A stretch of DNA of 64,000 nucleotides from Shimia gijangensis. Its GTDB lineage: Bacteria > Pseudomonadota > Alphaproteobacteria > Rhodobacterales > Rhodobacteraceae. The stretch lies in contig NZ_FQZQ01000001.1 of the NCBI RefSeq assembly GCF_900142085.1, forward strand, positions 1-64,000. The letters run 5' to 3'. Made by a program: the position numbers and the translations under genes. Shown here piece after piece: positions 2,854 to 19,832 of this stretch; the stretch's first letter is position 1, and each line of letters begins with the position of its first letter. The notes under the pieces were generated by a model, which worked only from the letters and a program-made list of their open reading frames with translations, was not told where the DNA came from and ran no database searches.

Positions 2854-3253
2854 TTCAAAAGTCGAAATCTGTAATTCTAGTGTCGGTCAACTAGGAGCGC
2901 TCATGGTAAAAACCAGCTGAGATTTGGATGGAACCAAAAGTAGAGTGTTCAGGTTTAGGAAGTGTACTGCGGCAACGTGGTAGAATGCGCCGAACGTCAA
3001 TTGCCTTAGATGCAACTCTTGACAATAACGCCTTGAAACTTAAACATTCCATTTCCCCTACGTGAATGCTGGCAAGCTTTACAGCAGTTAGGCATTCTAT
3101 TGTTTTTCTTGAGAAACCTTGTGCATTTGCTCTTTGTAATGCAGTTTGGTGGGTAAAGGCGCCTTAAGGCAATCACGGCTTGGGAAAGATCACTCAACTT
3201 TTCTTTTTGTATTAGCCAGCCTGAGGCCTTGATGGGGAATGCTGAGAGAACAA
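2854..3253. other. Intergenic region upstream of the signalling operon
   Basis: About 400 bp between the glutamate-synthase-like gene and the response regulator gene. I see no convincing gene. A TTGACA hexamer lies near 3017-3022, but a matching -10 box at standard spacing is poor. An 84-codon open frame on the minus strand (3006-3260) has no recognisable motif and no credible ribosome binding site. The operon promoter is presumably here. Confidence 0.4.
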
Positions 3254-3619
3254 ATGCCAAAAATTTTGCTTGTTGAAGACAATGAAATGAACCGGGACAT
3301 GCTGTCCCGACGATTAATGAAAAAGGGTTTTGATGTCGTTATGGCTTTTGACGGTCAGCAAGGCGTCAACATGGCTTTGAGCGAAACGCCTGACATCATT
3401 CTTCTTGATATGAGTTTGCCAGTCATGGATGGTTGGGATGCCGCTGGTGTTTTGAAAGGCCAAGACGCCACAAAAGCCATCCCAATAATCGCTCTTACTG
3501 CCCATGCAATGGCTGGTGACAAGGAAAAAGCCTTGGAAGCGGGTTGTAACGATTACGATACAAAGCCCGTGGATTTCAAACGGCTTCTGAGCAAAATCCA
3601 TGAGTTTGTTGGGGCATAA
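3254..3619 (+). CDS. Single-domain response regulator (CheY/DivK-like)
   Basis: A 121-residue receiver domain with no output domain. The acidic pocket is in ILLVEDNEMNRDM, the phospho-acceptor is Asp52 in IILLDMSLPVMDG, and the conserved Thr and Lys are in ALTAHA and DTKPVD. Such proteins pass phosphate between histidine kinases or act by protein binding. I chose the ATG at 3254 because homologues begin close to the first beta strand; an in-frame ATG at 3239 would add five residues. It opens the plus-strand run, 21 bp before the ammonium transporter, and the hybrid kinase two genes on is the natural phosphate donor. It belongs to the family of receivers often found beside hybrid kinases with several receivers. 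Confidence 0.9.
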   Translation: MPKILLVEDNEMNRDMLSRRLMKKGFDVVMAFDGQQGVNMALSETPDIILLDMSLPVMDGWDAAGVLKGQDATKAIPIIALTAHAMAGDKEKALEAGCNDYDTKPVDFKRLLSKIHEFVGA

Positions 3620-3640
3620 GCGCGGAAAGCGGAGACAGCA

Positions 3641-4867
3641 ATGAATAGTCTGGACATACTCTGGGTCGTCATTTGCTGCGCACTGGTTTTTCTGATGCAG
3701 GCCGGATTCTTGTGTTTAGAGAGCGGCCTCACTAGGACGAAGAACAGCATCAACGTTGCCATAAAAAACCTGGCCGATTTTTGCCTTACCACAATTGTGT
3801 TTTGGGCCGTCGGCTACTCGCTAATGTTCGGCACTTCTCAACTAGGTGTGTGGGGAAGGGGTTTGGTGTTTCCTGATTTTTCGGAGATTTCAGCACAGGA
3901 AACCACCTTTTTTCTTTTCCAAGTCATGTTTTGCGGAGCGACCGTGACAATAATTTCTGGAGCGGTCGCAGAAAGGTTGCAGTTCGGTGGCTATCTAATT
4001 GTTGCACTATTGGTCTCTGGGTTGGTTTATCCGGTCGCTGGACACTGGGCTTGGTCTTCACTGAACGGCGGCGAACCGGGTTTTCTGGCGAGATATGGGT
4101 TCGTGGACTTCGCAGGGTCTTCAGTAGTTCACAGTGTGGGGGGGTGGTCGGCCTTAGCCCTTCTAATAATTGTGGGGCCCCGCTTGGGTCGCTTTGACGG
4201 CAGCATAATGACGGCCGGGTCGAACCTGCCAATAGCGACACTTGGGGTCCTGTTACTTTTTGTCGGGTGGCTGGGCTTCAATGGGGGCAGCACGTTGGCA
4301 ATGAACGAAGACGTCCCATCCATCCTCGTAAACACGGTTATTGCCGGTTCAGCGGGCGCTCTCGCAGCTGGTGGGTTAGGATATGCTGTAAATAATAATT
4401 TGAACGTAACTCAGTTCATGAACGGCACTCTCGGCGGTCTGGTCGCAGTAACGGCCAATTGTTTTGCGGTCACGACACCTGTAGCAGCACTGATTGGGAT
4501 CGTCGGCGGCATGATTGTCGTCTTCGCTGAAAAGTTGCTGGAGCGTTTGGAACTGGACGATGCCGTCGGGGCGATACCCGTGCATCTGGCTGCCGGTATC
4601 TGGGGGACAGTGGCAACTGGCCTTTATGGAAATTTGGATATTTTGGGAACTGGGCTATCGCGGCTTGAACAAGTTGGCATCCAGCTCATAGGCGTTTTTG
4701 TTTATGGGGCTTGGGCCTTTGGAGTGTCTTATGTCTTGTTCTCTCTGGTCGACCGGGTTCTGCCATTTAGAGTGAGCGAAGAGCACGAGTTAATGGGGCT
4801 CAATCTTAGCGAGCACGGAATTCGACAGGAAACAGAAGGCGTGACACCAGTTACGTCAAATTCCTGA
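3641..4867 (+). CDS. amt: Ammonium transporter, Amt family
   Basis: Inner-membrane ammonium channel or transporter of 408 residues with about eleven hydrophobic helices, the usual Amt length. Both pore histidines are present: His164 in SSVVHSVGG and His315 in AIPVHLAAG. The N-terminal signature FLMQAGFLCLESGLTR is typical of the bacterial branch. The start ATG follows GCGGAGAC. Amt genes are normally paired with glnK, the PII regulator that plugs the channel. Here no glnK is present; instead a response regulator lies directly upstream and a hybrid histidine kinase 14 bp downstream. Fusions of Amt to histidine kinases act as ammonium sensors in some bacteria, so a sensory role coupled to the neighbouring kinase is a reasonable inference. 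Transport activity itself is likely. Confidence 0.93.
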   Translation: MNSLDILWVVICCALVFLMQAGFLCLESGLTRTKNSINVAIKNLADFCLTTIVFWAVGYSLMFGTSQLGVWGRGLVFPDFSEISAQETTFFLFQVMFCGATVTIISGAVAERLQFGGYLIVALLVSGLVYPVAGHWAWSSLNGGEPGFLARYGFVDFAGSSVVHSVGGWSALALLIIVGPRLGRFDGSIMTAGSNLPIATLGVLLLFVGWLGFNGGSTLAMNEDVPSILVNTVIAGSAGALAAGGLGYAVNNNLNVTQFMNGTLGGLVAVTANCFAVTTPVAALIGIVGGMIVVFAEKLLERLELDDAVGAIPVHLAAGIWGTVATGLYGNLDILGTGLSRLEQVGIQLIGVFVYGAWAFGVSYVLFSLVDRVLPFRVSEEHELMGLNLSEHGIRQETEGVTPVTSNS

Positions 4868-4881
4868 GCGGGGAAAATGAC

Positions 4882-7800
4882 ATGAGATCGAAACTTAGTA
4901 TCGGACAAAAGATTGTTTTTGTGACAATTCCGATAACGATGTTTGCTGTCCTTTTTACAGCGGTGGTTTCTGGCATCTCTTCGCGAAACGCCCTTGAAGA
5001 GGCCGCATTCGAACGGTTGACGGCTGTTAGAGAACTCAAAGCCCAACAAATCGAAGACTATTTTTTGCAAGTGGGTCATCAAGTAGCACAGGTTGCATTG
5101 GATCAATCCAATATTGACACATTGGACGCGATTGGCTTCACAACTTACAGCTTGCCAAGCATTTCTGAGAAAACAAAATCGGCCAATCTGGCGGCTGTTT
5201 CCAGTTTTTACTCGAAGAATATTTTCACATCTTTGAAGGAATCTCGCATTCCTGGTTTGACTCAGGAAATGCTTAGTGCGCTGGTTCCCCAAGACCCGAT
5301 AGCCTTGTACTTTCAAAATGCTATTCTTGTTTCTCAAAGTTTGGAAACCGTCGACACTTTACCGACTTACTGGCAATACTATTTGGACAAAAAGACCGAC
5401 CTCGACGCTCAATTTGTTGAGTTTTCACAACGGTTTGGTTTCCCATCTGTCTATTTCGCATTGGAACAAGATGCTCGCGTCGTTTACTCGACACAAAGGG
5501 GGATGGAGATTGGCACTTCTTTGACAAAAGGTCCGCATCACGAAAGCAATTTGGCTGAGGCGGTTAAACAAGCGCTCACACTCAAAAAAGGTGAAGCCGT
5601 CTTCGTCGATTTTGAGTCATATATTCCAGCAATGGGCCGCCCTACCGGTTTCATGGCGTCACCTATTTTCAAAGGCGATGTGAAGTTGGGGGCTGTTGCA
5701 TTTGAAATCCCGATCACCAAAATGAATGACATGATGACTTCACACCAATCCTGGAGCGAAGTTGGTCTGGGTGCGTCCGGAGAAACCTATCTAGTTGGCG
5801 ACGACTTTTTGCTACGTAGCCAGTCTAGGTTTTTGATTGAAGATCGTGATCAGTATCTACAAATGATCCGCGAAATAGGAACGCCAGAAGAAACAGTTCA
5901 ACTAATTGCCTCGCAAAACAATTCTATAGGGTTGCAAAAGGTCGACACTGTCGGGACTCGAACAGCGCTGAAGGGTGAGATTGATACCAGAATTTTTCCT
6001 GACTATCGCGGCGTTGACGTTTTGTCTTCTTTTCGCCCCTTAAACATCCCTGACACAAGTTGGGTGATAATGAGCGAAATCGACAAAGCGGAAGCTTTGG
6101 CGGCATTTCAAAAACTTCAAGACAAACTGATCCTGATTGCATCCGTTGTTTTGGCTGCGACGGTCTTTTTTGGCTATTTCTTCTCTTTGTCTTTGTCACG
6201 TCCAATCAGAGCCTTGGCTATGTCTGCAAAGGAACTAACCGGTGGAAATCTTGATGCTATCGTAGATGTTCAAACTGGTGATGAAATTGGAGAGCTAGCC
6301 GACGAATTCCAAAAAATGCAGCTGGCCCTACGGGAGTCTTTCGAGCGTGTCGAAATACAAAAAGATGAGCTGGAGTGCGAAGTTAAGCGCCAAACTGAAG
6401 AACTTAGAGAGACTTCTAGCCAGCTGAACTCGGCATTAGCTAGCATGTCCAGCGGCATTTACATGCTAGATGAAGAGTTAAATTTTGTCCTGTTTAATCA
6501 ACGGTTTTTGGAACAATACGAAGTCCCGGAAGGAGTTGTTCAAGTTGGCACAAATATTAGAGACGTTCTAAAGTTTCATGCTCATAGAGGTGATTTTGGT
6601 GATCGGGAAAGCGAAGAGGTGATTTTGTCGGTAATCGATGAATTCAGATCCAAAACTAATCAGCGGATTGAGCGAAAATTGCCTAACGGGAAAACTATCA
6701 ACGCCCAATTTTCGTTTCTGGAAAGCGGATCTGTCATCGTTGTTACTTCCGACATCAGCGACCTGAAAGAAAAAGAAGACCACCTCCTCCATCAAAACGA
6801 AGAGATGCTGAAAGTTCAGGGTGACCTAAAAGATAGTGAACAGCGTATCTCGAAGATTATTCAATCAAGTCCGGATGGGATCATTACGATTGATCGCAGC
6901 GGTATCGTTCAATCATTTAGCAATTCCGCAGAACGCATTTTTGGCTATTTTGCCGAAGAAGTGATCGGACGGAACGTCAAGATCCTGATGCCAAAAGAGG
7001 TTGCTCTGGAGCATGATTATTATCTCGAACGCTACACCGTTGGGAAAAGTTCTTCGATTGTTGGGGGCGTCCGAGTTGTAGATGCACTCCGCAAAGATGG
7101 CACGAAGTTTAAAATGGAACTGAGAGTTGAAGCTATTGAATTTGAAGGAGCCGAAACGCTCTACATAGGAACTGTCCGTGACATTACCATTCAACTGCAA
7201 ATGGAAGAGGAAGTGAACCGAGCTCGTGAGGAGGCCATTGCTGCCAACGCAGCCAAAAGTGCCTTCTTGGCCAATATGAGCCACGAGTTGCGGACGCCAA
7301 TGAACGCCATTATCGGGTATTCTGAAATGCTTGCGGAAGATGCCGAAGACGATGGCGATGAAGACGTACTCGCAGATTTGAACAAGATTACGACGGCCGG
7401 CAAGCACCTGCTTTCTCTCATCAATGATGTTCTTGACCTATCCAAGATCGAAGCCGGAAAAATGGAGCTGTTTATTGAAGAATTCAGCTTCTCAGATCTC
7501 GCCGCAGAGGTTGTTGTTACTGCTCAGAGTCTAGCAGATAAAAATGGAAATTCCCTTGCAGTCCAAATTGACGAAAATCTGAACAAAGTTTCCGGCGATC
7601 TAACGAAAACGCGGCAAATGCTTTTCAATCTGATTTCCAATGCTGCCAAATTCACCACGGATGGCACTATTACGCTGATTGGCGAAAGCTATCAAAATCG
7701 GGGTGAGGAATGGCTGCGTATGACTGTGGCGGACACTGGAATAGGCATTCCGGCGTCCAAACTGGACAAGATTTTTCAAGAGTTCTCTCAGGCCGACGAG

Positions 7801-8805
7801 TCCACGACACGAAACTATGGCGGGACAGGGTTAGGGCTTTCGCTTACTCGTCGCTTCGCCGAAATGATGGGCGGACGTATTAAAGTGGAAAGCATTGAAG
7901 GCGAAGGGTCTCAGTTCATTATTGAGTTACCTATGGAAGTTGAAAAACGGCACGAAGGCCTTGAAGCCGAAGCAAGCATTGAAGATCACGATCCAATTAC
8001 ATCGCCGGAGGAAGTGGTCGAACAATTAGCAGAAGTATCGGAACATGATTCCTTGGTCCTTGTGATTGATGATGAACAAAACGCACGACGATTGCTACAA
8101 AGAGCGCTGGAGCAGCAAGGATGCAAAGTCATCCTGGCAAATGATGGGCGAGAGGGGCTTAGACAAGCAGCCAAGTACAAACCGAATCTGATTACATTGG
8201 ATGTTATGATGCCCGGAATGGACGGCTGGGCTGTGTTGCGCTCGCTCAAATCTGATGAAGCTCTCAGAGATATTCCGGTCCTTATGGTGTCGATGATAGG
8301 TGACCGAGGCATGAGTTATGAACTCGGTGCTGTAGACGCGCTTCAAAAGCCGGTTGATCGGAATAAGCTAAGAAAATTTGTCGAAACCTATGCACATAGC
8401 AAAAACAAAAATGTGCTGATCGTTGAAGATGATCCAGCAGCCCGCTCCAATCTCAAGTCTATTCTGGAAAAGGAAAAATGGCGGGTTACAGAGGCAGAAA
8501 ATGGCGCCGTCGGATTGGAAAAGGCTCAGTCAACTGAGTACCAACTTATCCTACTGGATTTGATGATGCCGGTTATGGATGGATTTGAATTTTTGCAATC
8601 CGTTCGGTCGCCGGATTGTCGCTCGTCCCGCTCGCCAGTGGTCGTGATAACGGCCAAGGATTTGGATGCAACTGACAGGGCGAAGTTGTCGGGGAGTGTA
8701 GATCAGGTTGTTGCCAAATCTGGTCAATCAATCGAGAGCATTATGGCTGAGGTTAGGTCTGCACTTGGTGGGCAGTTTAATAAAGATCGGGGCCCGAATC
8801 CGTGA
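4882..8805 (+). CDS. Large hybrid sensor histidine kinase (periplasmic sensor, HAMP, PAS, kinase, two receivers)
   Basis: A 1307-residue membrane kinase. A helix at about residues 10-33 and another near 412-435 bracket a large periplasmic domain of about 380 residues, probably Cache-like. A HAMP segment follows (about 435-490), then a coiled coil, a PAS-like region (about 515-630), a clear PAS domain with IIQSSPDGIITIDRSG (about 655-775), a coiled coil, the H-box with His801 in SHELRTPMN, an ATPase domain with the G-boxes DTGIGIP and GGTGLGLSL, and two receivers with Asp1107 in TLDVMMPGMDG and Asp1226 in LLDLMMPVMDG. It should autophosphorylate and pass phosphate to its receivers, the upstream single-domain receiver or the receiver in the last operon gene. 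Its stop codon overlaps the next start by 4 bp. The ligand is unknown; proximity to Amt suggests ammonium or nitrogen state. Confidence 0.93.
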   Translation: MRSKLSIGQKIVFVTIPITMFAVLFTAVVSGISSRNALEEAAFERLTAVRELKAQQIEDYFLQVGHQVAQVALDQSNIDTLDAIGFTTYSLPSISEKTKSANLAAVSSFYSKNIFTSLKESRIPGLTQEMLSALVPQDPIALYFQNAILVSQSLETVDTLPTYWQYYLDKKTDLDAQFVEFSQRFGFPSVYFALEQDARVVYSTQRGMEIGTSLTKGPHHESNLAEAVKQALTLKKGEAVFVDFESYIPAMGRPTGFMASPIFKGDVKLGAVAFEIPITKMNDMMTSHQSWSEVGLGASGETYLVGDDFLLRSQSRFLIEDRDQYLQMIREIGTPEETVQLIASQNNSIGLQKVDTVGTRTALKGEIDTRIFPDYRGVDVLSSFRPLNIPDTSWVIMSEIDKAEALAAFQKLQDKLILIASVVLAATVFFGYFFSLSLSRPIRALAMSAKELTGGNLDAIVDVQTGDEIGELADEFQKMQLALRESFERVEIQKDELECEVKRQTEELRETSSQLNSALASMSSGIYMLDEELNFVLFNQRFLEQYEVPEGVVQVGTNIRDVLKFHAHRGDFGDRESEEVILSVIDEFRSKTNQRIERKLPNGKTINAQFSFLESGSVIVVTSDISDLKEKEDHLLHQNEEMLKVQGDLKDSEQRISKIIQSSPDGIITIDRSGIVQSFSNSAERIFGYFAEEVIGRNVKILMPKEVALEHDYYLERYTVGKSSSIVGGVRVVDALRKDGTKFKMELRVEAIEFEGAETLYIGTVRDITIQLQMEEEVNRAREEAIAANAAKSAFLANMSHELRTPMNAIIGYSEMLAEDAEDDGDEDVLADLNKITTAGKHLLSLINDVLDLSKIEAGKMELFIEEFSFSDLAAEVVVTAQSLADKNGNSLAVQIDENLNKVSGDLTKTRQMLFNLISNAAKFTTDGTITLIGESYQNRGEEWLRMTVADTGIGIPASKLDKIFQEFSQADESTTRNYGGTGLGLSLTRRFAEMMGGRIKVESIEGEGSQFIIELPMEVEKRHEGLEAEASIEDHDPITSPEEVVEQLAEVSEHDSLVLVIDDEQNARRLLQRALEQQGCKVILANDGREGLRQAAKYKPNLITLDVMMPGMDGWAVLRSLKSDEALRDIPVLMVSMIGDRGMSYELGAVDALQKPVDRNKLRKFVETYAHSKNKNVLIVEDDPAARSNLKSILEKEKWRVTEAENGAVGLEKAQSTEYQLILLDLMMPVMDGFEFLQSVRSPDCRSSRSPVVVITAKDLDATDRAKLSGSVDQVVAKSGQSIESIMAEVRSALGGQFNKDRGPNP

Positions 8806-9815
8806 ACTCTGATACCAATGGATCAACGCTGATCGAAAAACTTCTGATCGGAAAGGCTGAATGGGCCGAGTATCGTCTCTCCGCAGCGGGACAAAAAGAT
8901 GACGCACTAGATTTCAGCGAGGCGGATCTGGATGCAGCCGATCTCGCTGACCGCGATTTATCTAGGGCGGATTTCTTTTCGGCGAGCCTGGCGCAAGCAA
9001 ATCTAAAAATGTGCGATCTTGGTGGTGCAGATTTTGGAAGCGCCAAGCTAACGAAGGCTTCGCTATACAAATGCAATCTGAGAGGAACGATTTTTCAGGA
9101 AAGTGATTTGAGTCAGGCCGACCTGTCGCACAGCGATTGTGAAAACGCTGATTTCCGCGGAGCCAACTTGACCAATACTAACTTTGAAGGCGCCAATCTG
9201 AAAAATGCTCGGTTTGTGTCAGCAAATCTGACCAACGCATCTTTTCGAGCAGCTGTGTTAGATGGAATCGATTGCAGACATTCCACCTTTGAGAAAGTGG
9301 ATTTGACGTTATCTAGCTTTGGCGGATACAGCACGATGACTGGAAAGTTTACCGGAATCAGAGGTATCGAGAGCTGCTATGGAAATGCTGTCTTTGTTCG
9401 TGATGTGAAAGACCAAGACTATATTGATACATTCAAGCAATCTATCGAGGCGTTGCCCAATGGTTTCAAAAAGTCGCTAGAACTCTTGATGTTCAGGGCT
9501 TGGGGATTAATCGATCACGGGCGCAGTTTGGCTAAAGTCAGCCTTTATGCCGTGATACTGGCTACAATTTACGGCCTCGTCTATCTGGCTGATATGTCTT
9601 TTGGCTGGGAAATGATGGACTACTCCAATTCTGCCCAAACATGGTTCACGCCATTTTACTATTCCTTGGTTACTTACACGACACTCGGATACGGAGACGT
9701 TACAGCCAATTCTCTTATCGGAGAAATGTTAGTCATCAGCGAAGTTGTAATAGGGTATTTTACTCTCGGCCTGTTGCTGTCCATCCTTGCTAACACTATT
9801 GCTCGTCGAAGCTGA
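8802..9815 (+). CDS. Pentapeptide-repeat protein fused to a two-helix potassium-channel module
   Basis: A 337-residue protein with two parts. Residues about 38-178 are pentapeptide repeats of the A(D/N)LXX type, which fold as a right-handed quadrilateral beta helix. After a linker, residues about 240-335 form a two-transmembrane pore domain with the selectivity filter Thr293-Thr294-Leu295-Gly296-Tyr297-Gly298-Asp299, the hallmark of K+ channels (Ion_trans_2). It probably makes a tetrameric potassium channel in the inner membrane with a cytoplasmic pentapeptide domain for gating or docking. The start is a GTG overlapping the kinase stop codon, which indicates translational coupling. Pentapeptide-channel fusions occur in bacteria but are little studied. 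Placement between a histidine kinase and a second channel suggests that the operon controls ion flux. Confidence 0.9.
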   Translation: MNSDTNGSTLIEKLLIGKAEWAEYRLSAAGQKDDALDFSEADLDAADLADRDLSRADFFSASLAQANLKMCDLGGADFGSAKLTKASLYKCNLRGTIFQESDLSQADLSHSDCENADFRGANLTNTNFEGANLKNARFVSANLTNASFRAAVLDGIDCRHSTFEKVDLTLSSFGGYSTMTGKFTGIRGIESCYGNAVFVRDVKDQDYIDTFKQSIEALPNGFKKSLELLMFRAWGLIDHGRSLAKVSLYAVILATIYGLVYLADMSFGWEMMDYSNSAQTWFTPFYYSLVTYTTLGYGDVTANSLIGEMLVISEVVIGYFTLGLLLSILANTIARRS

Positions 9816-9832: not shown

Positions 9833-11791
9833 ATGAGTGAAACTTCATCCGTTACAGAAGCAGTTATATTTTTTCTTTTTCTGGCCAGTATAACGCTCCT
9901 GTTTGTACGAACAGCCATTGCGGTGGCAAAAGGACGACGACATCGTTTACGGCTGGCAATGGAGCTCGTGGCGCTTTTTGCGATAATCTACTTTCTCAAT
10001 AGTCCAGCATTGCGCTTCCTTGGGATGGAAAATCTTGCCGCTGATTTCCAAAAAGGAGTTTTGTTCCTTTGGACTGTCTCATTAGCGTTTTTGGCGAATA
10101 CAGCGCTGGAACGATTTGTGTGGGATGGTGTCCTTTCGATCCATGGTGAACGACGCATCCCCAAGCTAATCACCGATGGCATTGGGCTGATAATTTACTC
10201 CGTCGCAGTGATGTTTGTCCTTCACTATGTTTATGGCGAACCAATCGGCCCAGTGCTTGCGACCTCTGGGGCAGCCGCCATTGTTATTGGATTTGGTGCG
10301 CAGTCGACAATCCGCGAAGTGTTTTCTGGAGTTGCACTTAACACGACCAAGGCGTTGCGAATTGGCGACTACGTCGAGATAGACGACGTCTATGGGCAGG
10401 TACATGACATCAATTGGCGCAGCGTCTCTGTTCACAACCCTCACACTGACTCGCTCTACATTTTCCCAAACAGCGCCGTTGCTGAAACGAAAATCCTGAA
10501 CTTTAGCGAACCACAAGATGTATTTCGCTACTACATCACATTCTCGGCGGAGCTTTCAGCGCCACCCGAAAAGGTCATTCGGGTCATTGCGGATGAGCTT
10601 AAGCACTCGAAGTATGTTTACCGGACTCCAGCGCCAAACTTCAACATTCTCGGCTACAGTGAGCGAGGTATCGACTATCGTGTCCGGTATCATTTTGAAG
10701 GTGATGACCCATGGTGGGATGCCCAAAATGAAATGTGCATGGCCATATGGGGCGCTGCCCGCAAGCATGGATTGCGCATCGCCATGAACAGAATGCTTCA
10801 GGGTTCACCAAACTCGGAATGGGAGTTCATCGACGAAAAAAATTTCGCTACTGCGGCGCCGGATGCCGTGCTGGATCTTTTGAAATCCCATCCGGTTTTC
10901 GGCAAGCTTTCGGACGAAGGGTTAAAAATACTCTGCGATGGATACGAAACTGTCGATCTAAGCCCGCCATCCTGTTTCTACCAAAAAGGGGAGTTGGCAG
11001 ACGGCGCCTTTCTTCTGCTAGAAGGTCGTGTCGATATTCTTGACGATGAGGGGCTACACGACCTAGAGGTCCAGAACGTCGAGCCCGGCGAATTCTTTGG
11101 TTTGGAAACGGTCTTCGGAGAGCAAAAACGCTTGCTAGCAGCTCGGGCCGACGAGTACTCGGTTGCAGTACGATTTAATGACGAAACAATTACAAATATT
11201 CTCCGAGAGTCCGAAAATGTGAAAAAGCTTCTTTCTGAATCTGAGGCTTCATTCGACAATGATCGCCGTCAACGGCGTAAAGACGAGCTGTTCCAAATTC
11301 GCATCGCTGCACATCATCGGGAACGGCACTCTTCTCTTAACAGCATCCGCAGCGGTATAGACGAAATGGTTAACAAACCAGCCCTGCACCATTTGTTGGA
11401 TCATTTCTCCAAACGAGTTCGAAACGAAGAGCTTCTGGAAGGGCTGGCAGCTACGGCAGCCCACCTGGCCGTATCCCGCGGAACTCCTGACGAAGTCGAG
11501 AGAGACTATTTCAGAGAAGCCCTTCGACATGCTGATTTGCTGAAACATGTTGAGCTGACGCATGGTTTGGACCTGTTTGACAGCTATTGTTCTCAGTTAG
11601 TAGATCAGACCGACAGAGAAAAATCCGGCCTTGTTCTGAAGGAACTAAGAGAGGCCAAAAGGGTTAAGGGCGGTGAAGCGGTTGTTCGCCATTTTGCCAA
11701 AGGTTTGTTTGGCGTTCGAGGGTTGCCGGATGAACGTGAGCAAAGCGCTTTCGCTCAAATTGAGGCGGTTCTGAGCGAAACAAGAAACTAA
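9833..11791 (+). CDS. MscS-family channel with cyclic-nucleotide-binding domain and TerB-like C-terminus
   Basis: A 652-residue protein. Membrane helices lie near residues 9-31, 42-60, 75-92, 114-134 and 139-168; the last carries the Gly/Ala-rich pore pattern of MscS. The beta domain follows with RIGDYVEIDDVYGQV. Residues about 344-465 form a cyclic-nucleotide-binding-like domain, with AFLLLEGRVDILD and the PGEFFGLET turn that replaces the classical phosphate-binding cassette. Residues about 480-645 are helical and resemble TerB-like (tellurite-resistance) domains; this last call is weaker. MscS plus CNB proteins are known as a subfamily whose gating by cyclic nucleotides has been proposed. 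The start ATG follows a GGGGGA box. No nucleotide cyclase is encoded in the window, so a ligand would have to come from elsewhere. Confidence 0.85.
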   Translation: MSETSSVTEAVIFFLFLASITLLFVRTAIAVAKGRRHRLRLAMELVALFAIIYFLNSPALRFLGMENLAADFQKGVLFLWTVSLAFLANTALERFVWDGVLSIHGERRIPKLITDGIGLIIYSVAVMFVLHYVYGEPIGPVLATSGAAAIVIGFGAQSTIREVFSGVALNTTKALRIGDYVEIDDVYGQVHDINWRSVSVHNPHTDSLYIFPNSAVAETKILNFSEPQDVFRYYITFSAELSAPPEKVIRVIADELKHSKYVYRTPAPNFNILGYSERGIDYRVRYHFEGDDPWWDAQNEMCMAIWGAARKHGLRIAMNRMLQGSPNSEWEFIDEKNFATAAPDAVLDLLKSHPVFGKLSDEGLKILCDGYETVDLSPPSCFYQKGELADGAFLLLEGRVDILDDEGLHDLEVQNVEPGEFFGLETVFGEQKRLLAARADEYSVAVRFNDETITNILRESENVKKLLSESEASFDNDRRQRRKDELFQIRIAAHHRERHSSLNSIRSGIDEMVNKPALHHLLDHFSKRVRNEELLEGLAATAAHLAVSRGTPDEVERDYFREALRHADLLKHVELTHGLDLFDSYCSQLVDQTDREKSGLVLKELREAKRVKGGEAVVRHFAKGLFGVRGLPDEREQSAFAQIEAVLSETRN

Positions 11792-11826
11792 TCTAATCGC
11801 AGAATACTGTGAAAAGGGACGCAAAC

Positions 11827-13515
11827 ATGAGTGAAGCAAGCATTCTGTCATTTGTCGTGGGAGTAACAGGCCACAGAGACATCCCCAAGCAGCTTTGTCA
11901 GCTTGTGGAAGAGAACGTGGCTGCCCAACTCAGGTCGATTTCAGAAATGTTTTCGTCGTTACCCATAGAGATCGTGAGCGGGCTAGCAGCAGGCGCGGAC
12001 ACACTTGTGGCGGAACAGGCGTTGGCGCTGGGAATGAAGGTCACTGCGGTTTTACCTATGCCGGCAGAGATGTATGAAGCGGACTTTGATGGAGAAGATC
12101 TAGAACGTTTCCGCACGTTGTTGGTAGATGAAAGAGTCAGTGTTACAGAACTCCCCGTTCTAGATTCAGAAAACCTGGATCGAGATCATCAGTACGTTCT
12201 CCTGAAGGACTATCTTGTACGCAGATCTAATCTACTGATTGCGCTTTGGGATGGGGAGGTAACGGGGCTTGCCGGCGGTACTTCGGATGTAGTGCTGTCC
12301 TATCTTGGCATAGAAACAAATAGTCCCAATCTTCAAAAGCTATCCCGATCTTCAAATAGCGGAGATGATGGTAATCTAGTGATTTCGATTTCCACACCGC
12401 GTGTTTGGAGTGAGTATGCCGATGGTGAGGTTGGCTTTGAATATCTGGTGAGCGAAGGCGCTGAAGGGTGTTTGGCAAGTCTAATCGATTTCCCCAAGAC
12501 TATTTTCGACCGATGGAAAAATTTTAACTCCTATGCCGCTGAGAGATTTTCAACAAATGGTGAATCAATAGTTTCCTATGATTTGTTTTCAGAAAATGAC
12601 CCTGATCTTGTTGCCGCCGCTAATCTGCTGAATGAAGAATTCATCAGAGCGGATCAACTAGCCATCCAAAATCAAAAGCGATCTGACATGCTGTTCAAAG
12701 GTTTTGGATTGATGGCCGGGGCAATGGGTCTTCTGTTTCTGGTCTATGCAAAGCTAGCATCGATGAAGATCTTTCTAGTTGCTTATCTGGTTTTGTTTGC
12801 AGCGGGATATGTACTTTTCAAAGTCGGTCACAAGCGTGCCTGGTTCAGCAAGCACTTAGGATACAGGGCTTTTGCAGAGACAATCCGCATTCGGTATTTT
12901 CTGGAACTGTCCGGATGCGGTGACGCAGTGGATACCAGCGGTCGTTTGAAGCTTATGAAAGTGAACCGTTTCAAAGGGCTAGAATGGATTGTAGATGCTG
13001 CGCGATGCACCGAAACTCTGCCAAGTCTTAAACAGAACAGTCGTGGCGTGATGGAAACAACGAGGCGCTGGGTTGAAGATCAGTCGAAGTACTTTGAAAA
13101 GAAGGTTCATCACCTGCACGCTGAGCATGAAAGACTTGAGACGATAAAGAAGCTTTTGTTTTTTGGGTCGTTCATTGGGACGCTGGCTCTGATCTTTTTC
13201 AAGAAAGATCTCTATCATTTGAAACTTGCAGGATTTGACGGCAAGACTCTCCTAGTTTTCCTTATGGGTTTGCTTCCCCTCTGGTTGGCTCTTTGGGAGC
13301 TGTACCAGAGTAAAATGGCTATCAGGGAGCTGGCTTGGCAGTACTCCAATCAAGCTCAGATGTTCACGAACGCTTTACGCCGATTGAACGAGTTGCAGGG
13401 GGAGACCTGTCAACGTGCCATTATTACCGATCTTGCGGACAGCTCATTTGCGGAGGCTTTGCAATGGACAGTTCATCGTTACCATCGCGAACATGAACCA
13501 CCAACGGCAGGATAA
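11827..13515 (+). CDS. SLOG-like nucleotide-binding protein with four transmembrane helices (SLATT-like)
   Basis: A 562-residue protein starting at the ATG at 11827, which has AAAGGGA upstream; a GTG at 11809 would add six residues. The N-terminal 165 residues look like a SLOG (DprA/LOG-type Rossmann) domain: GVTGHRDI, then SGLAAGADTLVAEQAL, then NLLIALWDG followed by GGTSDVV. Hydrophobic pairs lie at about residues 293-311 and 315-333, and at about 443-459 and 475-493, separated by about 110 mostly helical residues with coiled-coil character. This resembles SLOG/SLATT architectures, which comparative genomics links to nucleotide-sensing membrane effectors in conflict systems. The SLATT part is inferred from layout, not from a motif. 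It is 35 bp after the MscS gene and 2 bp before the DUF4062 gene. Function unknown; membrane permeabilisation on ligand sensing is a hypothesis. Confidence 0.75.
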   Translation: MSEASILSFVVGVTGHRDIPKQLCQLVEENVAAQLRSISEMFSSLPIEIVSGLAAGADTLVAEQALALGMKVTAVLPMPAEMYEADFDGEDLERFRTLLVDERVSVTELPVLDSENLDRDHQYVLLKDYLVRRSNLLIALWDGEVTGLAGGTSDVVLSYLGIETNSPNLQKLSRSSNSGDDGNLVISISTPRVWSEYADGEVGFEYLVSEGAEGCLASLIDFPKTIFDRWKNFNSYAAERFSTNGESIVSYDLFSENDPDLVAAANLLNEEFIRADQLAIQNQKRSDMLFKGFGLMAGAMGLLFLVYAKLASMKIFLVAYLVLFAAGYVLFKVGHKRAWFSKHLGYRAFAETIRIRYFLELSGCGDAVDTSGRLKLMKVNRFKGLEWIVDAARCTETLPSLKQNSRGVMETTRRWVEDQSKYFEKKVHHLHAEHERLETIKKLLFFGSFIGTLALIFFKKDLYHLKLAGFDGKTLLVFLMGLLPLWLALWELYQSKMAIRELAWQYSNQAQMFTNALRRLNELQGETCQRAIITDLADSSFAEALQWTVHRYHREHEPPTAG

Positions 13516-13517
13516 AC

Positions 13518-14969
13518 ATGACAGAAGCTAGTCCAACATCCTTCGCAGAAATGCTTTCAGGCATCCGACATGACCTCAGAACGCCAGTAGGTCACATCAT
13601 CGGGTACTCAGAGATGATCGAGGAGGAATTGGATGAGGATGAGGCCAACACATTCGCCCAAGATTTGCAGGCAATTCAGAACGCTGGACAGCGGATCCTA
13701 GCACTGATTGACGACCACTTTAACGCAGCAAAAACGTCACCCGACCAAATTTCACTCCATGACGCACAGTACCAGTTGCGGGTACAGCTCAATCACATAT
13801 CCGGATATGCGGAGATGCTTCGAGAGGAGGGCGTGGATGACCAGAATCAAGAGCTCGTCTCCGACCTGGACAAAATCATCCACGCTGAAAAGGTGATTGT
13901 TTCGCTGGTCGAAAAAATTGACCTGAATGAAAAAGACTCAACCGAAAAATCTGCCAAAGTTTCGGGGCCACAAACAGCCCCTAGCAATCCGGCAATCGAA
14001 GAATCCGCGCTTGTCGGTGTAGGTGGTCATATTCTGGTCGTCGATGATGATCCTGTGAACCGAGAGATGCTTCAAAGAAGATTGGCTCGAAGTGGATATA
14101 CATCCTCTGTAGTCGCTTCCGGGCAAGAGGCATTGGACACGCTAGCCAAGAGCCGTGCCGATCTTGTTCTTCTTGATCTGATGATGCCTGGGTTATCTGG
14201 TCTGGAAACGCTTGAGATTCTGAAGGCGGATCAAAGGCTACGCACTGTCCCGGTGATTATGCTAACCGCCGCTGACGATATGAACACAATGGTACAATGC
14301 GTATTACAGGGTGCGGATGACTACATTTTCAAACCATTCAATCCTGTTCTTCTGAATGCTCGCATTAGCGCATGCTTGGAAAAAGTTCGACTTCGTCAGA
14401 ATGTCTCTAAGAAAATTCGCGTTTTTATTTCTTCACCTGGCGACGTCATTCCTGAGCGTAAAATCTTGAAAGAAGTCATTGGTCGGCTGAATGAAGAGTT
14501 TTTTGGATCCGCATACATCATCCCAATATTGTGGGAAGAAGAACCGCTTCTTGCGTCCGATACCTTTCAGGCTCAGATTCATCCCCCCCATGATACGGAT
14601 GTTTATGTGGGAATATTGTGGTCACGCATCGGTTCGCCATTACCGGACTCGATTCTACGGCCAGACGGAACGAGATACGATTCTGGCACCGCTTTTGAAT
14701 TCGAGGATGCGCTTGATGGATTTCGTCAGAATGGAAAGCCAGAGATGTTGCTTTACCGCAAATCTGGTGCTCCTTCTCTGTCGTTGGCAGATGAAGCGGC
14801 TGTTTTGGACAGATTGGATCAGATCAAAAAGTTGCAAAGCTATGTGGATAGGTGGCTGATTGGCGAAGATGGATCTTACATTGGCGCTTTTCACATGTTC
14901 GCGGAAATTGATGAATTTGAAGCAATGACTGAAATGCATTTACGTAAGGTGGTCGACAAGCTGATTTAG
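13518..14969 (+). CDS. Tandem DHp-like segments, receiver and C-terminal DUF4062 domain
   Basis: A soluble 483-residue fusion. Residues about 10-70 are a histidine-kinase dimerisation segment with His18 in IRHDLRTPVGHIIGYSEM. Residues about 80-135 repeat it (LNHISGYAEML), but the aligned position of the phospho-His is Tyr. No ATPase domain follows, so it cannot be a self-sufficient kinase. Residues about 170-290 are a receiver with Asp220 in LLDLMMPGLSG. Residues 298-483 form a DUF4062 domain starting with RVFISSPGDVIPER, a TIR-related fold usually found at the N-terminus of STAND NTPases. A DUF4062 domain as the output of a receiver is unusual. It could be phosphorylated by the operon's hybrid kinase, with DUF4062 as the effector or protein-binding part. 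Last gene of the run. Confidence 0.8.
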   Translation: MTEASPTSFAEMLSGIRHDLRTPVGHIIGYSEMIEEELDEDEANTFAQDLQAIQNAGQRILALIDDHFNAAKTSPDQISLHDAQYQLRVQLNHISGYAEMLREEGVDDQNQELVSDLDKIIHAEKVIVSLVEKIDLNEKDSTEKSAKVSGPQTAPSNPAIEESALVGVGGHILVVDDDPVNREMLQRRLARSGYTSSVVASGQEALDTLAKSRADLVLLDLMMPGLSGLETLEILKADQRLRTVPVIMLTAADDMNTMVQCVLQGADDYIFKPFNPVLLNARISACLEKVRLRQNVSKKIRVFISSPGDVIPERKILKEVIGRLNEEFFGSAYIIPILWEEEPLLASDTFQAQIHPPHDTDVYVGILWSRIGSPLPDSILRPDGTRYDSGTAFEFEDALDGFRQNGKPEMLLYRKSGAPSLSLADEAAVLDRLDQIKKLQSYVDRWLIGEDGSYIGAFHMFAEIDEFEAMTEMHLRKVVDKLI

Positions 14970-15451: not shown

Positions 15452-16507
15452 CTAATGCTTCATCGGCAAAGTTTCCAACCTCTGCAATTCATCCAAAAGC
15501 TTGACCGCAAGCCGAACACTGGCGGATTGATATTTGTGCGATGCCTGAAGCACCCCCATGATTTCCTCTAAGCAATCATCTGGCAGATTCCGCCGCTTCA
15601 CTTCTTTTTCGAGGAATGTATTCATCTGAACCTGGTTCGGTGGTTCAATATGAATTGACCGAAGGCGGGAGCGCAAAAGAGCAGGAAGTCGACTGACATC
15701 ATTCGCAGTCATCAACCAATTGATCCGGCTCATGTCGAACCCTGTCTGGAAATACGGACAATGCCAATTAACGGCTGATACCGGCTCCAGCAGACCCAAC
15801 AACGCTGAATGAAGCGAAGTACTATGGCCACTCGTTCCTGTGGCAATTCCAGCTTTGTCGATTTCATCAATCACGACGACAGGGTTTGCAATCTTGTTTG
15901 CCAACATGGTTTTTACAGGACGACCACATTCCGCACCTCCCCAACCTCTGGCCAAACCAGCGACTGGGAAACCTTCAGATCCAGCGCCTCCATCAATATG
16001 AACAACGGGTAAACTGGTAAGTTCAGCAATCCGACGTACGAGATGTGTCTTTCCCAGACCAGCACCGCCAACCAATAATGTTGGGCGCAGCTTCAAACCG
16101 GCTCCATGTTCGGAAACATGATGACGCATATCCAACCAGATCTCGTTGATTGGCTCCTGCATCCAGGGCATTTCTTCAAACAGTTGAGATGCGATTTCAT
16201 CAACTTGATGTACAGTTTCAGGGCCTTCAATGGAGACCCCATTCAATGCCGGTTTCAACATCTTCTTTTCAGCACGAGTAAGATGCTGGCCTTGGCTGTA
16301 CTTTCGGCGAGCTCGCACAATCTTTGCAGCTCGTTGGTTGATCTTTTTTCTGTCGTCCCAACTCAGATAGATTGGATCTTGGGTTTTCTTGGTTTTGTTT
16401 TGAGTAAACCTTAGATCCTCAAGATGGCTTTTCAATCGCTTCTCAATATCTTCATCATCTGTTTCAAACAGCTTCAGATCAGTCAATAAGGGAACAATTT
16501 TAGGCAT
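15452..16507 (-). CDS. AAA family ATPase
   Basis: A 351-residue protein with one AAA+ module. The Walker A motif is at residues about 147-154 (GGAGLGKT), Walker B has Asp214-Glu215 in VVVIDEIDKAG, and a sensor-1/arginine-finger region follows (INWLMTANDVSRLPALLRSRL). The arrangement resembles the ATPase part of Lon-like proteins, but no protease domain is present. About 110 charged N-terminal residues are unassigned. The ATG at 16507 is preceded by AAGGTG. It lies downstream of the Rep-like gene on the same strand, separated by 186 bp, and appears to be part of a mobile replication or maintenance module. A chaperone-like or DNA-remodelling function is likely; the specific role is unknown. Confidence 0.8.
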   Translation of the reverse strand: MPKIVPLLTDLKLFETDDEDIEKRLKSHLEDLRFTQNKTKKTQDPIYLSWDDRKKINQRAAKIVRARRKYSQGQHLTRAEKKMLKPALNGVSIEGPETVHQVDEIASQLFEEMPWMQEPINEIWLDMRHHVSEHGAGLKLRPTLLVGGAGLGKTHLVRRIAELTSLPVVHIDGGAGSEGFPVAGLARGWGGAECGRPVKTMLANKIANPVVVIDEIDKAGIATGTSGHSTSLHSALLGLLEPVSAVNWHCPYFQTGFDMSRINWLMTANDVSRLPALLRSRLRSIHIEPPNQVQMNTFLEKEVKRRNLPDDCLEEIMGVLQASHKYQSASVRLAVKLLDELQRLETLPMKH

Positions 16508-16693
16508 GCAAACACCTTCCAAGATGTTTCGCAGACAGAGATTTCTATTGGGAAATTTCTAGAAAACCGTTGTCCGCATTCAATAATTATCGATCAGCAA
16601 AAATGCTGTTCATATCGAATGCAGGGGATTCCAGTTTCTATTCATACCAATGACATATGAGGCCAAAAGGTCAATTTCAACAAAATGATGATT

Positions 16694-18277
16694 CTAATGT
16701 TTCAATCTGGATATGAAGGAATTCACTTTTGACCAGAATTCATTTCCAAAAAGATTCAGCGAATAGATTTTCAGTCTGGAAATTGGGGATTCCAAAAGAG
16801 TAAGCCAACCATATTTAGGATCAGGGGATTCCTTGATTTTTCGGTTCTTCGGTTTTCGTTCTTTTTCGATCTCCAGAAGAGTTTTCAAAACATTTGGACT
16901 GACGATTACCGTGTAACTCTGTACCTCAGAAGCCCTTAGAAGCTTCAGAATGTCCTCGGCAATCGGGTTAAGGAATTCTTTAAGATTGAAGCGTCGACCT
17001 GTATTTGCTTCCCAGGCATATCTCGCCACTTTGTTGGCTTCATAAAAGCTACCTGGACCACCGGACACCAGCAAGTTTTCTAAACTGTCTTCTTCAAAAT
17101 TCTGAACAAGACCAAACGCCAATAGCCGGCCTTCAGGCGACGCAACGGGATTACCGCAGCCACAATAGATGTTTTCGGTTTTTGGACGATCCGGGTTTTG
17201 GGGAACCCTTTCGGGGTCTGGTTTCTCTGCTTCCGACGATTCTGAAGTGTCGTCCTTTTTTGAATTCGTTTTTGAGCGCTTATCAACAAGACAGACGGAC
17301 ATTCGGCCAGTTGTTTCACAGCGATGGAAAGTGGTTCGGCGCCCTTGGTCTTTCAGCTCTTTTAGAGTTGTTTTCAGAGGGGCTTCTGTTCTTGTGAACC
17401 TCTTTCGCCTGGATTGGCCTAGATAGGCTTCAAAAACGCTCTCATTGCCTGCTGCCGCGATTTCATAGGCTGTGGCGCAGGGTTTGGTTCCGTATCGAAT
17501 AGCTCGGGCAACATCTTTATGGGCGATACGCTTTAAATGTAATCCAGCATGGCTCTCCAGCCAGGGAGTATTTGTCTTCAGGAATGATAAGGCGTCCCGA
17601 CGGCTAACATCGCCAAATCCGATTTCCAAAAACACATGGAAATGCAGGTAGAAGGTTTCTGTTATAGGATCATACGGCGCCTCTAATTGAGCATAGATGA
17701 ATTCACCTAATTCAGACTTCTTGAATGCGTTTTTAAGTTTATTAAATCGCTTGAAGGCGAGATCGACACCAGCCTCGTAATTCTCAACTGTGATGCGTTC
17801 GTCAAGAGCGGGAAATGTCAGGGCTGCCAGCTGTGCCTGCCCATATATCTTGCTTTCATAATGGTAGGTAATATTGGCGGCAGTCTGTGTTGCATCGACC
17901 ATCGCAACTGACGGGAGACGCTTGTCATGTTTGTATGCCGAGTAACAAAACCCTAGGTATTCGCCGTCTGGCAGGCCCAACAAAAGCTGTGCCGTTTTCT
18001 TCTTTCCAGGGCGGCGGAAGCTTTGCCCAATCTGTTCTCCCATCTCCGCTACAACAGCCGACATCTCTCGAATGTTTGTGGAGCCAACGCCAAAACGGAA
18101 GCCGTCTTTGTATTCAACTTTCTTTCCGACTTTTTGCAGCGTGCCTTTGGTCGAGATGATCTCGTGACCGTTCAGTTCTTTGACTGCTTTTTTTGCCTGT
18201 TTGCGGTTTTTGTGGCTTCGTCTGCTTTGGGCAAACCTCTTCTGTTCACGGACTCGAGCCGCGTTCTGATTTTTCAA
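16694..18277 (-). CDS. Putative HUH-type replication initiator (Rep)
   Basis: A 527-residue basic protein with features of rolling-circle initiators. His212 and His214 in YLHFHVFLE form the HUH metal-binding pair after a hydrophobic strand, and Tyr262 with Lys265 in AIRYGTKP match the catalytic tyrosine motif (YxxK) seen in Rep families. The first 35 residues are highly basic (RRSHKNRKQAKKA). Residues about 320-370 are a low-complexity charged linker. The start is a TTG with AAGGA 8 nt upstream; no ATG is in frame nearby. It is followed by the AAA ATPase gene and preceded by a 377-bp intergenic region with inverted repeats. The family call rests on short motifs and context, so a related HUH relaxase or transposase cannot be excluded. 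Confidence 0.6.
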   Translation of the reverse strand: MKNQNAARVREQKRFAQSRRSHKNRKQAKKAVKELNGHEIISTKGTLQKVGKKVEYKDGFRFGVGSTNIREMSAVVAEMGEQIGQSFRRPGKKKTAQLLLGLPDGEYLGFCYSAYKHDKRLPSVAMVDATQTAANITYHYESKIYGQAQLAALTFPALDERITVENYEAGVDLAFKRFNKLKNAFKKSELGEFIYAQLEAPYDPITETFYLHFHVFLEIGFGDVSRRDALSFLKTNTPWLESHAGLHLKRIAHKDVARAIRYGTKPCATAYEIAAAGNESVFEAYLGQSRRKRFTRTEAPLKTTLKELKDQGRRTTFHRCETTGRMSVCLVDKRSKTNSKKDDTSESSEAEKPDPERVPQNPDRPKTENIYCGCGNPVASPEGRLLAFGLVQNFEEDSLENLLVSGGPGSFYEANKVARYAWEANTGRRFNLKEFLNPIAEDILKLLRASEVQSYTVIVSPNVLKTLLEIEKERKPKNRKIKESPDPKYGWLTLLESPISRLKIYSLNLFGNEFWSKVNSFISRLKH

Positions 18278-19745: not shown

Positions 19746-19832
19746 TGGTGCCCAGAAGAGGACTCGAACCTCCACGTCCTTGCGGACACTAGCACCTGAA
19801 GCTAGCGCGTCTACCAATTCCGCCATCTGGGC
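19746..19832 (-). tRNA. tRNA-Leu (anticodon CAG)
   Basis: The minus-strand sequence begins GCCCAGATGGCGG and ends TCTGGGCACCA, giving a 7-bp acceptor stem with an encoded CCA. The anticodon arm is CTAGC-TTCAGGT-GCTAG, so the anticodon is CAG (reads CUG). The long variable arm GTGTCCGCAAGGAC and the T arm GAGGTTCGAGTCCTC are typical of tRNA-Leu. It marks a visible change in base composition, and its 3' end faces the accessory region, a common integration geometry. Confidence 0.95.

Follow-up and report, generated by a model that had tools for sequence, protein, structure and literature searches.

A Sensor-Type Amt Encoded Beside a Hybrid Histidine Kinase in Shimia gijangensis: A Probable Two-Protein Ammonium Switch

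The window analysed here, a stretch of 64,000 nt from contig NZ_FQZQ01000001.1 of Shimia gijangensis, carries a gene for an ammonium transporter homologue (Amt; nt 3641–4867, + strand) immediately upstream of a gene for a hybrid histidine kinase (nt 4882–8805, + strand), and the two products probably constitute a two-protein ammonium-sensing switch. By its sequence, the Amt belongs with the Amts of fused ammonium sensors and not with GlnK-type AmtB proteins. In the reading we prefer, with a probability of about 0.65, the Amt would be an ammonium receptor acting in trans on a kinase that has its own periplasmic sensor, much as in the UhpC/UhpB and DctA/DcuS pairs. A sequence-only reading of this DNA had described an Amt flanked by a receiver and a hybrid kinase instead of glnK. 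This arrangement was borne out by the open reading frames (ORFs), by domain assignment with Pfam, and by a tblastn search of the 64 kb window with the GlnK of the same genome, which gave no matches (E 1e-3). The genome has three amt genes, one of which (C36:314666, locus L046) has glnK directly upstream.

The Amt is an unfused protein of 408 aa (Ammonium_transp, 1.5e-107), classed as sensor-type from its branch and site residues. When it was searched against the PDB, the closest solved relative was 8qj3 (376 bits), which with 8qj4 and 8qpf is entered as 'Ammonium transporter' and which we take to be Sd-Amt1, with a cyclase output. Scores were lower for Ks-Amt5 (6eu6, 284 bits), A. fulgidus Amt1 (172 bits) and E. 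coli AmtB (130 bits). A tree of 64 Amt domains grouped the window Amt and 16 standalone Amts from similar clusters in one branch (support 100/100), nested within a 39-row branch that otherwise consisted of 21 Amt fusions and 8qj3 (support 97/88). Canonical Amts, in two branches that include the glnK-linked one, fell outside the 39-row branch, as did Ks-Amt5, which forms a long separate branch. Rows shorter than 330 residues were excluded from this tree and from the site alignment, and the fragments from L091 and L096 are absent from the tree. The same affinity was seen in searches of related genomes: a search of the class (385 genomes) gave 30 matches outside its own genome with E 1e-88 or better, and 29 of them lie in frames of at least 706 aa, i.e., fusions; in the phylum (398 genomes), all 12 such matches at 1e-115 lie in frames of 741–1295 aa. 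No transducer is fused to the window Amt, the chain of which ends at 408 aa with a stop at nt 4867 (the 8qj3/8qj4/8qpf chain has 644–661 aa and a long C-terminal part), so the window Amt is not itself a member of the fused sensor class.

Two intramembrane ammonium ions are held in Ks-Amt5 by Q24, E31, N47, D50, T51, T109 and T112, according to PMC5764959. Alignment places Q20, E27, N43, D46, F47, T103 and S106 of the window Amt at these seven positions; five are identical to Ks-Amt5 (T51 is replaced by F, and T112 by S) and all seven to 8qj3. Six residues make up the ammonium site predicted within the membrane (Q20, E27, N43, D46, T103 and S106) and are encoded between nt 3698 and 3958. The resulting signature, Q-E-N-D-x-T-S, occurred in 16/16 cluster Amts and 30/30 fused Amts, and in 0/12 canonical Amts. 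A second sample of 67 rows (Amts of at least 300 residues) gave it in 12 of 13 fusions, one of which (L249) repeats a gene of the first alignment (L070), in 1 of 31 solo Amts, and in none of 25 solo Amts with glnK in a short locus; it was also present in 23/23 cluster rows, but these are repeats of genes already counted. AmtB of the AmtB–GlnK type shares the Amt fold and the conserved pore residues with the window protein but reads A-E-N-L where the latter reads Q-E-N-D, falls in another branch, and is paired with a GlnK that the window locus lacks. An ordinary amt–glnK locus that had merely lost glnK was ruled out by the branch and the site residues.

The sequence-only reading had proposed to check whether the two genes occur together in other genomes. 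Contigs from the genomes of 84,980 species were scanned with an alignment of the kinase sensor, starting from two exact peptide patterns; this gave 112 confirmed relatives, of which 80 loci were kept. The closest relatives of the Amt, 61–68% identical and unfused, were found beside homologues of this kinase. An Amt 61–67% identical to that of the window was present in the locus of 13 of the 80 sensor homologues (11 with the kinase core on the same chain, and 2 cut at a contig end), in the genera Aliiruegeria (two loci), Boseongicola, Falsiruegeria, Tateyamaria, Thalassotalea and Colwellia (two loci), and in bins labelled Desulfobulbaceae, Gammaproteobacteria, Caldilineaceae, Filomicrobium and Methyloceanibacter. 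Sensor and kinase core share a chain in 17 of the 80 loci, and 11 of these 17 have the Amt. Two others, L087 (Marivita) and L089 (Ruegeria arenilitoris), are cut off by a contig edge shortly ahead of where the Amt would be expected, and each of the two genomes has an Amt of this kind that runs off the end of a different contig; from these matching ends we infer that the genes adjoin there as well. Where the sensor chain has no kinase core, the Amt was found in 0/55 complete loci and in 2/8 loci that were cut short. At genome level, an Amt of at least 60% identity occurred in 14 of the 24 genomes behind the nearer loci, all 14 being genomes of Amt-linked loci. None of the 50 genomes behind the farther loci reached 60%, the best match being 55% in a 673-aa frame, with four above 50% in frames of 668–819 aa. 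Among the carriers of the pair are Roseobacteraceae and allied taxa, Colwelliaceae, and bins with the labels Hyphomicrobiaceae and Desulfobulbaceae; as in a transporter–kinase pair, a transporter homologue is encoded with the kinase across diverse genomes. A chance neighbourhood of Amt and kinase was ruled out by recurrence with altered gene order.

The kinase (1307 aa) consists of a periplasmic Cache-like sensor, HAMP, PAS_7, PAS, HisKA (His801) and HATPase_c domains, and two receivers, as assigned by Pfam and by motifs (HELRTP at 801, NAAKFT at 920, DTGIG at 951, GGTGLGL at 980, and LDxMMP at 1106 and 1225). The dCache_1 match to the periplasmic part falls short of the curated cut-off in the window (0.0004, 20 bits) and likewise in the orthologue of L034 (5e-10, 40 of the 45 bits needed), which is 50% identical to the window kinase over 1294 residues.

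The Amt follows the sensor module of this kinase and not its catalytic core. A sensor tree of 86 rows, comprising all 80 loci plus the window, G141, G055 and G146, placed all 17 Amt-linked rows within a single 19-row branch with a support of 100 in the Shimodaira–Hasegawa-like approximate likelihood ratio test (SH-aLRT); two of the 17 are linked only via matching contig ends. The same branch was recovered (SH-aLRT 99) in an earlier tree of 60 rows, which represented 56 of the 80 loci, with L132 and L139–L161 left out. The two remaining rows of the branch are L103 and L092, of which the latter is no independent case of a kinase without Amt, since its DNA is that of L091, truncated ahead of the Amt gene. 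Three loci (L090, L091 and L096) keep the sensor and the Amt with a kinase core of another type, 40–46% identical to the window type and 72–76% among themselves. Conversely, L104 and L099 have a window-type core (59–62%), a sensor outside the branch, and no such Amt; in L104 the core is on a separate chain, and the receiver, SLOG and DUF4062 proteins are retained despite the missing Amt. Because the Amt tracks the sensor through this natural exchange of cores, the comparison suggests that the Amt acts on the membrane/sensor module of the kinase, and it indicates where the contact between the two proteins should be sought. Distances between Amts and between sensors were correlated (r 0.95 over 13 loci, 0/5000 permutations), with species relatedness not removed, so that shared descent alone could suffice to produce the correlation.

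We infer the receptor function, the Amt–kinase contact and the order of the phosphorelay as follows. The Amt would be a separate protein that either descends from the Amt modules found in fused ammonium sensors or is their sister. External ammonium would bind at its predicted intramembrane site, and the state of the Amt would be passed sideways to the membrane/HAMP module of the adjoining kinase, where the periplasmic Cache-like sensor would supply a second input to be combined with the first. From the two receivers of the kinase, phosphate might then be relayed to the free receiver and to a protein encoded downstream (nt 13518–14969), in which a dimerisation and histidine phosphotransfer (DHp) domain is followed by a receiver and DUF4062. 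The likely effectors would be a pentapeptide/K+ channel, an MscS-like channel and a SLOG membrane protein from the same gene run, with ion flux altered via a nucleotide messenger.

Several known systems share parts of this scheme. Ks-Amt5, a fused Amt–histidine kinase of Kuenenia stuttgartiensis, likewise combines an Amt-fold receptor, the lack of a glnK neighbour and a kinase output (PMC5764959), whereas the window kinase is not on the Amt chain and has PAS domains, receivers and a periplasmic sensor of its own. The same source notes that Amts are trimeric and that most kinases function as dimers. DctA/DcuS and UhpC/UhpB are sensor pairs of a transporter and a kinase (PMC5703999); the likeness is one of logic only, a separate transporter-like membrane protein tuning a sensor kinase, as both the protein families and the ligands are different. 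Transporters as accessory proteins of kinases have been reviewed, with Ks-Amt5 as a fused example, in PMC8534201. The GrtK/GrtR system of Burkholderia glumae is also a two-component response to external ammonia but, unlike the window pair, reportedly has no Amt module and operates independently of Amt (PMC12918730). In the open-licence papers searched, passages of the reviews PMC10433425 and PMC10794816 among them, no account of an unfused Amt that is paired with a hybrid kinase was found. The solved ammonium-sensor Amts encountered here (6eu6 and 8qj3) are parts of single fused chains. If our reading is correct, the pair would illustrate how a transporter fold that is trimeric can signal between proteins, the Amt receptor being free and the kinase under its control a separate chain, and the question of sensor versus transporter could be addressed by altering one gene while leaving the kinase untouched.

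A number of observations weigh against a receptor role or limit the counts that bear on it. Of the residues that block the pore of Ks-Amt5 (F27, Y30 and F34), only the first is retained in the window Amt (F23, L26, L30), as in glnK-type AmtBs; 8qj3 likewise differs, with F, F and N. The twin His, the Phe gate, and the W and S residues of the pore are intact. Since the plugs of Ks-Amt5 are mostly absent and the pore residues intact, the window Amt may still transport. Both 8qj3 and Ks-Amt5, as well as several fusions, are long branches, so their placement in the Amt tree is unsure. Two distinct standalone Amts with the signature (L169:3368–4669 and L217:670–2001) show no kinase gene beside them within the available 10 kb and 3.3 kb, respectively, and the signature alone is therefore no proof of kinase-linked sensing; that of L169 lies near a gene judged by eye to encode a GAF–sigma54 activator-like protein. 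No Amt is shown in four of the 17 loci that have sensor and core together, namely the cut L092 as well as L099, L143 and L149, of which the last two are kinase-type homologues without this Amt. L103 has the sensor of the branch and lacks such an Amt in both its 3.9 kb locus and its bin. The sequence-only reading had named kinase homologues mostly lacking Amt neighbours as the finding that would speak against it; given that the pairing recurs, this objection fails for the relevant branch (11/17, plus L087 and L089), while most of the distant sensor-domain homologues lack the Amt. The pairing counts were ascertained from the side of the kinase sensor and with two exact peptide patterns, and they contain near-copies (L082/L083, L097/L111, L091/L092, and L096/L138, which are 98.6% identical in DNA over 1.8 kb). 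Some rows are metagenome bins with possibly wrong labels. L091 and L092 come from bins labelled Caldilineaceae and Halieaceae, i.e., two phyla, and their DNA is 100% identical over 4645 bp, so at least one of these contigs is misassigned. The reverse test, which is unbiased by the kinase, gave only two positive genomes, G000 and G141. Among 149 genomes of the family, the own genome included and each from another genus, G141 was the one other genome with the cluster, in which it has two tandem Amts. None of 24 further congeneric species has this Amt.

In a second reading, the Amt would be a normal transporter, perhaps slightly specialised, that sits in the operon because the same response regulates it or makes use of it, while the kinase senses something else through its Cache-like domain. 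It would account for the intact twin His, Phe gate and selectivity residues, for the absence of two of the three Ks-Amt5 plugs, and for signature Amts standing without kinase neighbours; UrtA-like binding proteins near the kinase (L034, L091, L092, L093, L094 and L103), and urea/amide-binding or PilJ partners in some clusters, hint at nitrogen compounds other than ammonium. We nevertheless regard it as unlikely, as the Amt lies outside the glnK branch, has its branch and site in common with fused sensors, tracks the sensor module of the kinase rather than the catalytic core, and would be added to two other amt genes in the genome, one with glnK. The sequence-only reading had considered a split version of an Amt–kinase fusion plausible. 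Part of its interpretation is supported, by the position of the Amt within the fused/sensor branch and by the recurrence of the pairing, and the nesting of cluster Amts in a branch otherwise made up of fused Amts and 8qj3 would fit a fusion that broke, leaving its kinase half as the present hybrid kinase. A literal split is nonetheless unsupported and highly improbable, because the kinase core, at 31–44% identity, is no nearer to the kinases of Amt fusions than to unrelated hybrid kinases; its front end, a sensor–HAMP module of its own, is shared with non-Amt proteins.

A third alternative arises from the genes further downstream, and the operon could chiefly be a module for nucleotide-signal conflict or ion stress (SLOG, DUF4062 and channels) with a captured nitrogen sensor, to which ammonium sensing is incidental. 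The SLOG fold is related to ThsA and ShosA, a DUF4062 region is present, the flanks look mobile (an integrase-like frame at nt 154–1305 and an AAA protein at nt 15452–16522), and the Amt is missing from 24 congeners. On the other hand, a PADLOC scan of nine window proteins (the Amt and the glutamate-synthase-like protein not among them) gave only partial single-domain matches, the best being 1e-11 for a receiver, and the recurring neighbours are nitrogen-related (Amt, UrtA-like binding protein and glutamate-synthase-like protein). We consider this reading quite improbable. For the operon as a whole, our tentative and rather doubtful proposal is a new ammonium-to-ion-flux system, in which the free Amt would control the kinase in trans and the relay would drive a phosphorylation-gated DUF4062 enzyme to make a nucleotide signal; this signal, read by the SLOG protein and the MscS–cyclic nucleotide (cNMP) channel, would, together with the K+ channel, reset membrane ion flow as ammonium changes.

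The tight run comprises seven genes on the + strand, from the receiver at nt 3254 to nt 14969, and so continues past nt 8805, where the sequence-only reading had ended it. The intergenic gaps are, in order, 21, 14, −4, 17, 17 and 2 nt, the kinase ORF overlapping the pentapeptide gene by 4 nt. The first gene encodes a single-domain, CheY-like receiver (nt 3254–3619, 121 aa; Response_reg, 2.2e-24), and its start at nt 3254 agrees with orthologues better than the mechanical ORF start at nt 3239. This free receiver is 67–79% identical in seven of eight compared loci (of Roseobacteraceae type, Colwelliaceae and a Trueperaceae bin); the nearest receiver in L090 is only 36% identical. After the kinase come a pentapeptide-repeat protein with a C-terminal, two-helix K+-channel-like pore (nt 8802–9815; Pentapeptide 2e-28, Ion_trans_2 2.5e-10), relatives of which occur in L034, L082–L087, L089, L099 and L104, and an MscS-like channel with a cyclic-nucleotide-binding domain (nt 9833–11791; MS_channel_2nd 2e-14, cNMP_binding 3e-10). 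In another locus (L036:7828–10065), a sensor of this family is linked on one chain to a guanylate-cyclase domain, with an MscS–cNMP channel next to it, possibly a cyclase–channel pair.

The product of nt 11809–13515 has, in its AlphaFold2 model (predicted local distance difference test score 74), a SLOG Rossmann-like fold followed by C-terminal helices that are likely transmembrane. Its SLOG part matches YpsA (Z 17.7, 156 residues, 2.7 Å) and ThsA (6lhx; Z 8.7, 141 residues, 3.8 Å), and the model also matches DprA, ShosA and the SLOG part of TRPM2. The helices are weakly SLATT-like, SLATT_3 being detected in 4/10 members at 0.04–0.13 (best 0.042), with the window row below cut-off. The last gene of the run (nt 13518–14969) encodes HisKA without an ATPase domain (His18), a second, degenerate repeat, a receiver (Response_reg) and DUF4062. 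The DUF4062 domain was detected in 10/10 members (best 8e-6), with the window row, at 0.0012, below cut-off; this region of the structure model has a confidence mostly under 70 (blocks of 42–83), and the structure matches listed are chiefly to the receiver. As His18 and the receiver Asp220 are kept in 10/10 rows and no ATPase domain is seen, this protein may receive phosphate from the kinase. In L090 and L096, a receiver–SpoIIE phosphatase follows the kinase instead. A nucleotide messenger and an ion-flux output are conjecture drawn from the SLOG, MscS–cNMP and K+-channel-like folds; the presence of linked genes for SLOG, DUF4062 and channel proteins suggests that the output differs from that of classical nitrogen control.

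The operon region is possibly a mobile island, a reading considered because of the integrase-like and AAA flanks and the absence of the Amt from congeners. The integrase-like frame (nt 154–1305) matches Phage_integrase at 0.0003, below cut-off, and the AAA protein is accompanied by unassigned minus-strand genes (flank nt 15452–18277). The end of a tRNA-Leu gene (nt 19746–19832) is not repeated within the 64 kb window, and direct repeats, of which 20 of 43 families were shown, are short and imperfect. Carriage by plasmids was rejected after a search of 72,556 plasmid records, in which the best Amt match was 46.9% identical at E 1e-60 and the SLOG protein was matched over at most 29% of its length at E 1e-10.

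Genes with possible links to nitrogen recur around these clusters. A PilJ-domain periplasmic protein is encoded between Amt and kinase in L034 (L034:11337–12302), and an UrtA-like binding protein beyond its K+ channel gene (L034:5064–6392). UrtA-like genes precede the kinase in L091–L093 and L103, and precede the Amt in L094. Since PilJ-like and UrtA-like proteins join some clusters, further nitrogen compounds may serve as inputs. In the window, a glutamate-synthase-like gene (nt 1390–2853) is separated from the operon downstream by about 400 bp. Genes resembling it (37–38% identical) are found ahead of the Amt in L097 and L111, and there is one more nearby in L090. Some clusters of Roseobacteraceae type carry sensor-type Amts in tandem (L034:12299–13549; L084, L085 and L086). 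In all four loci compared, the second copy has Leu in place of the first Phe-gate residue, and the first copy retains Phe.

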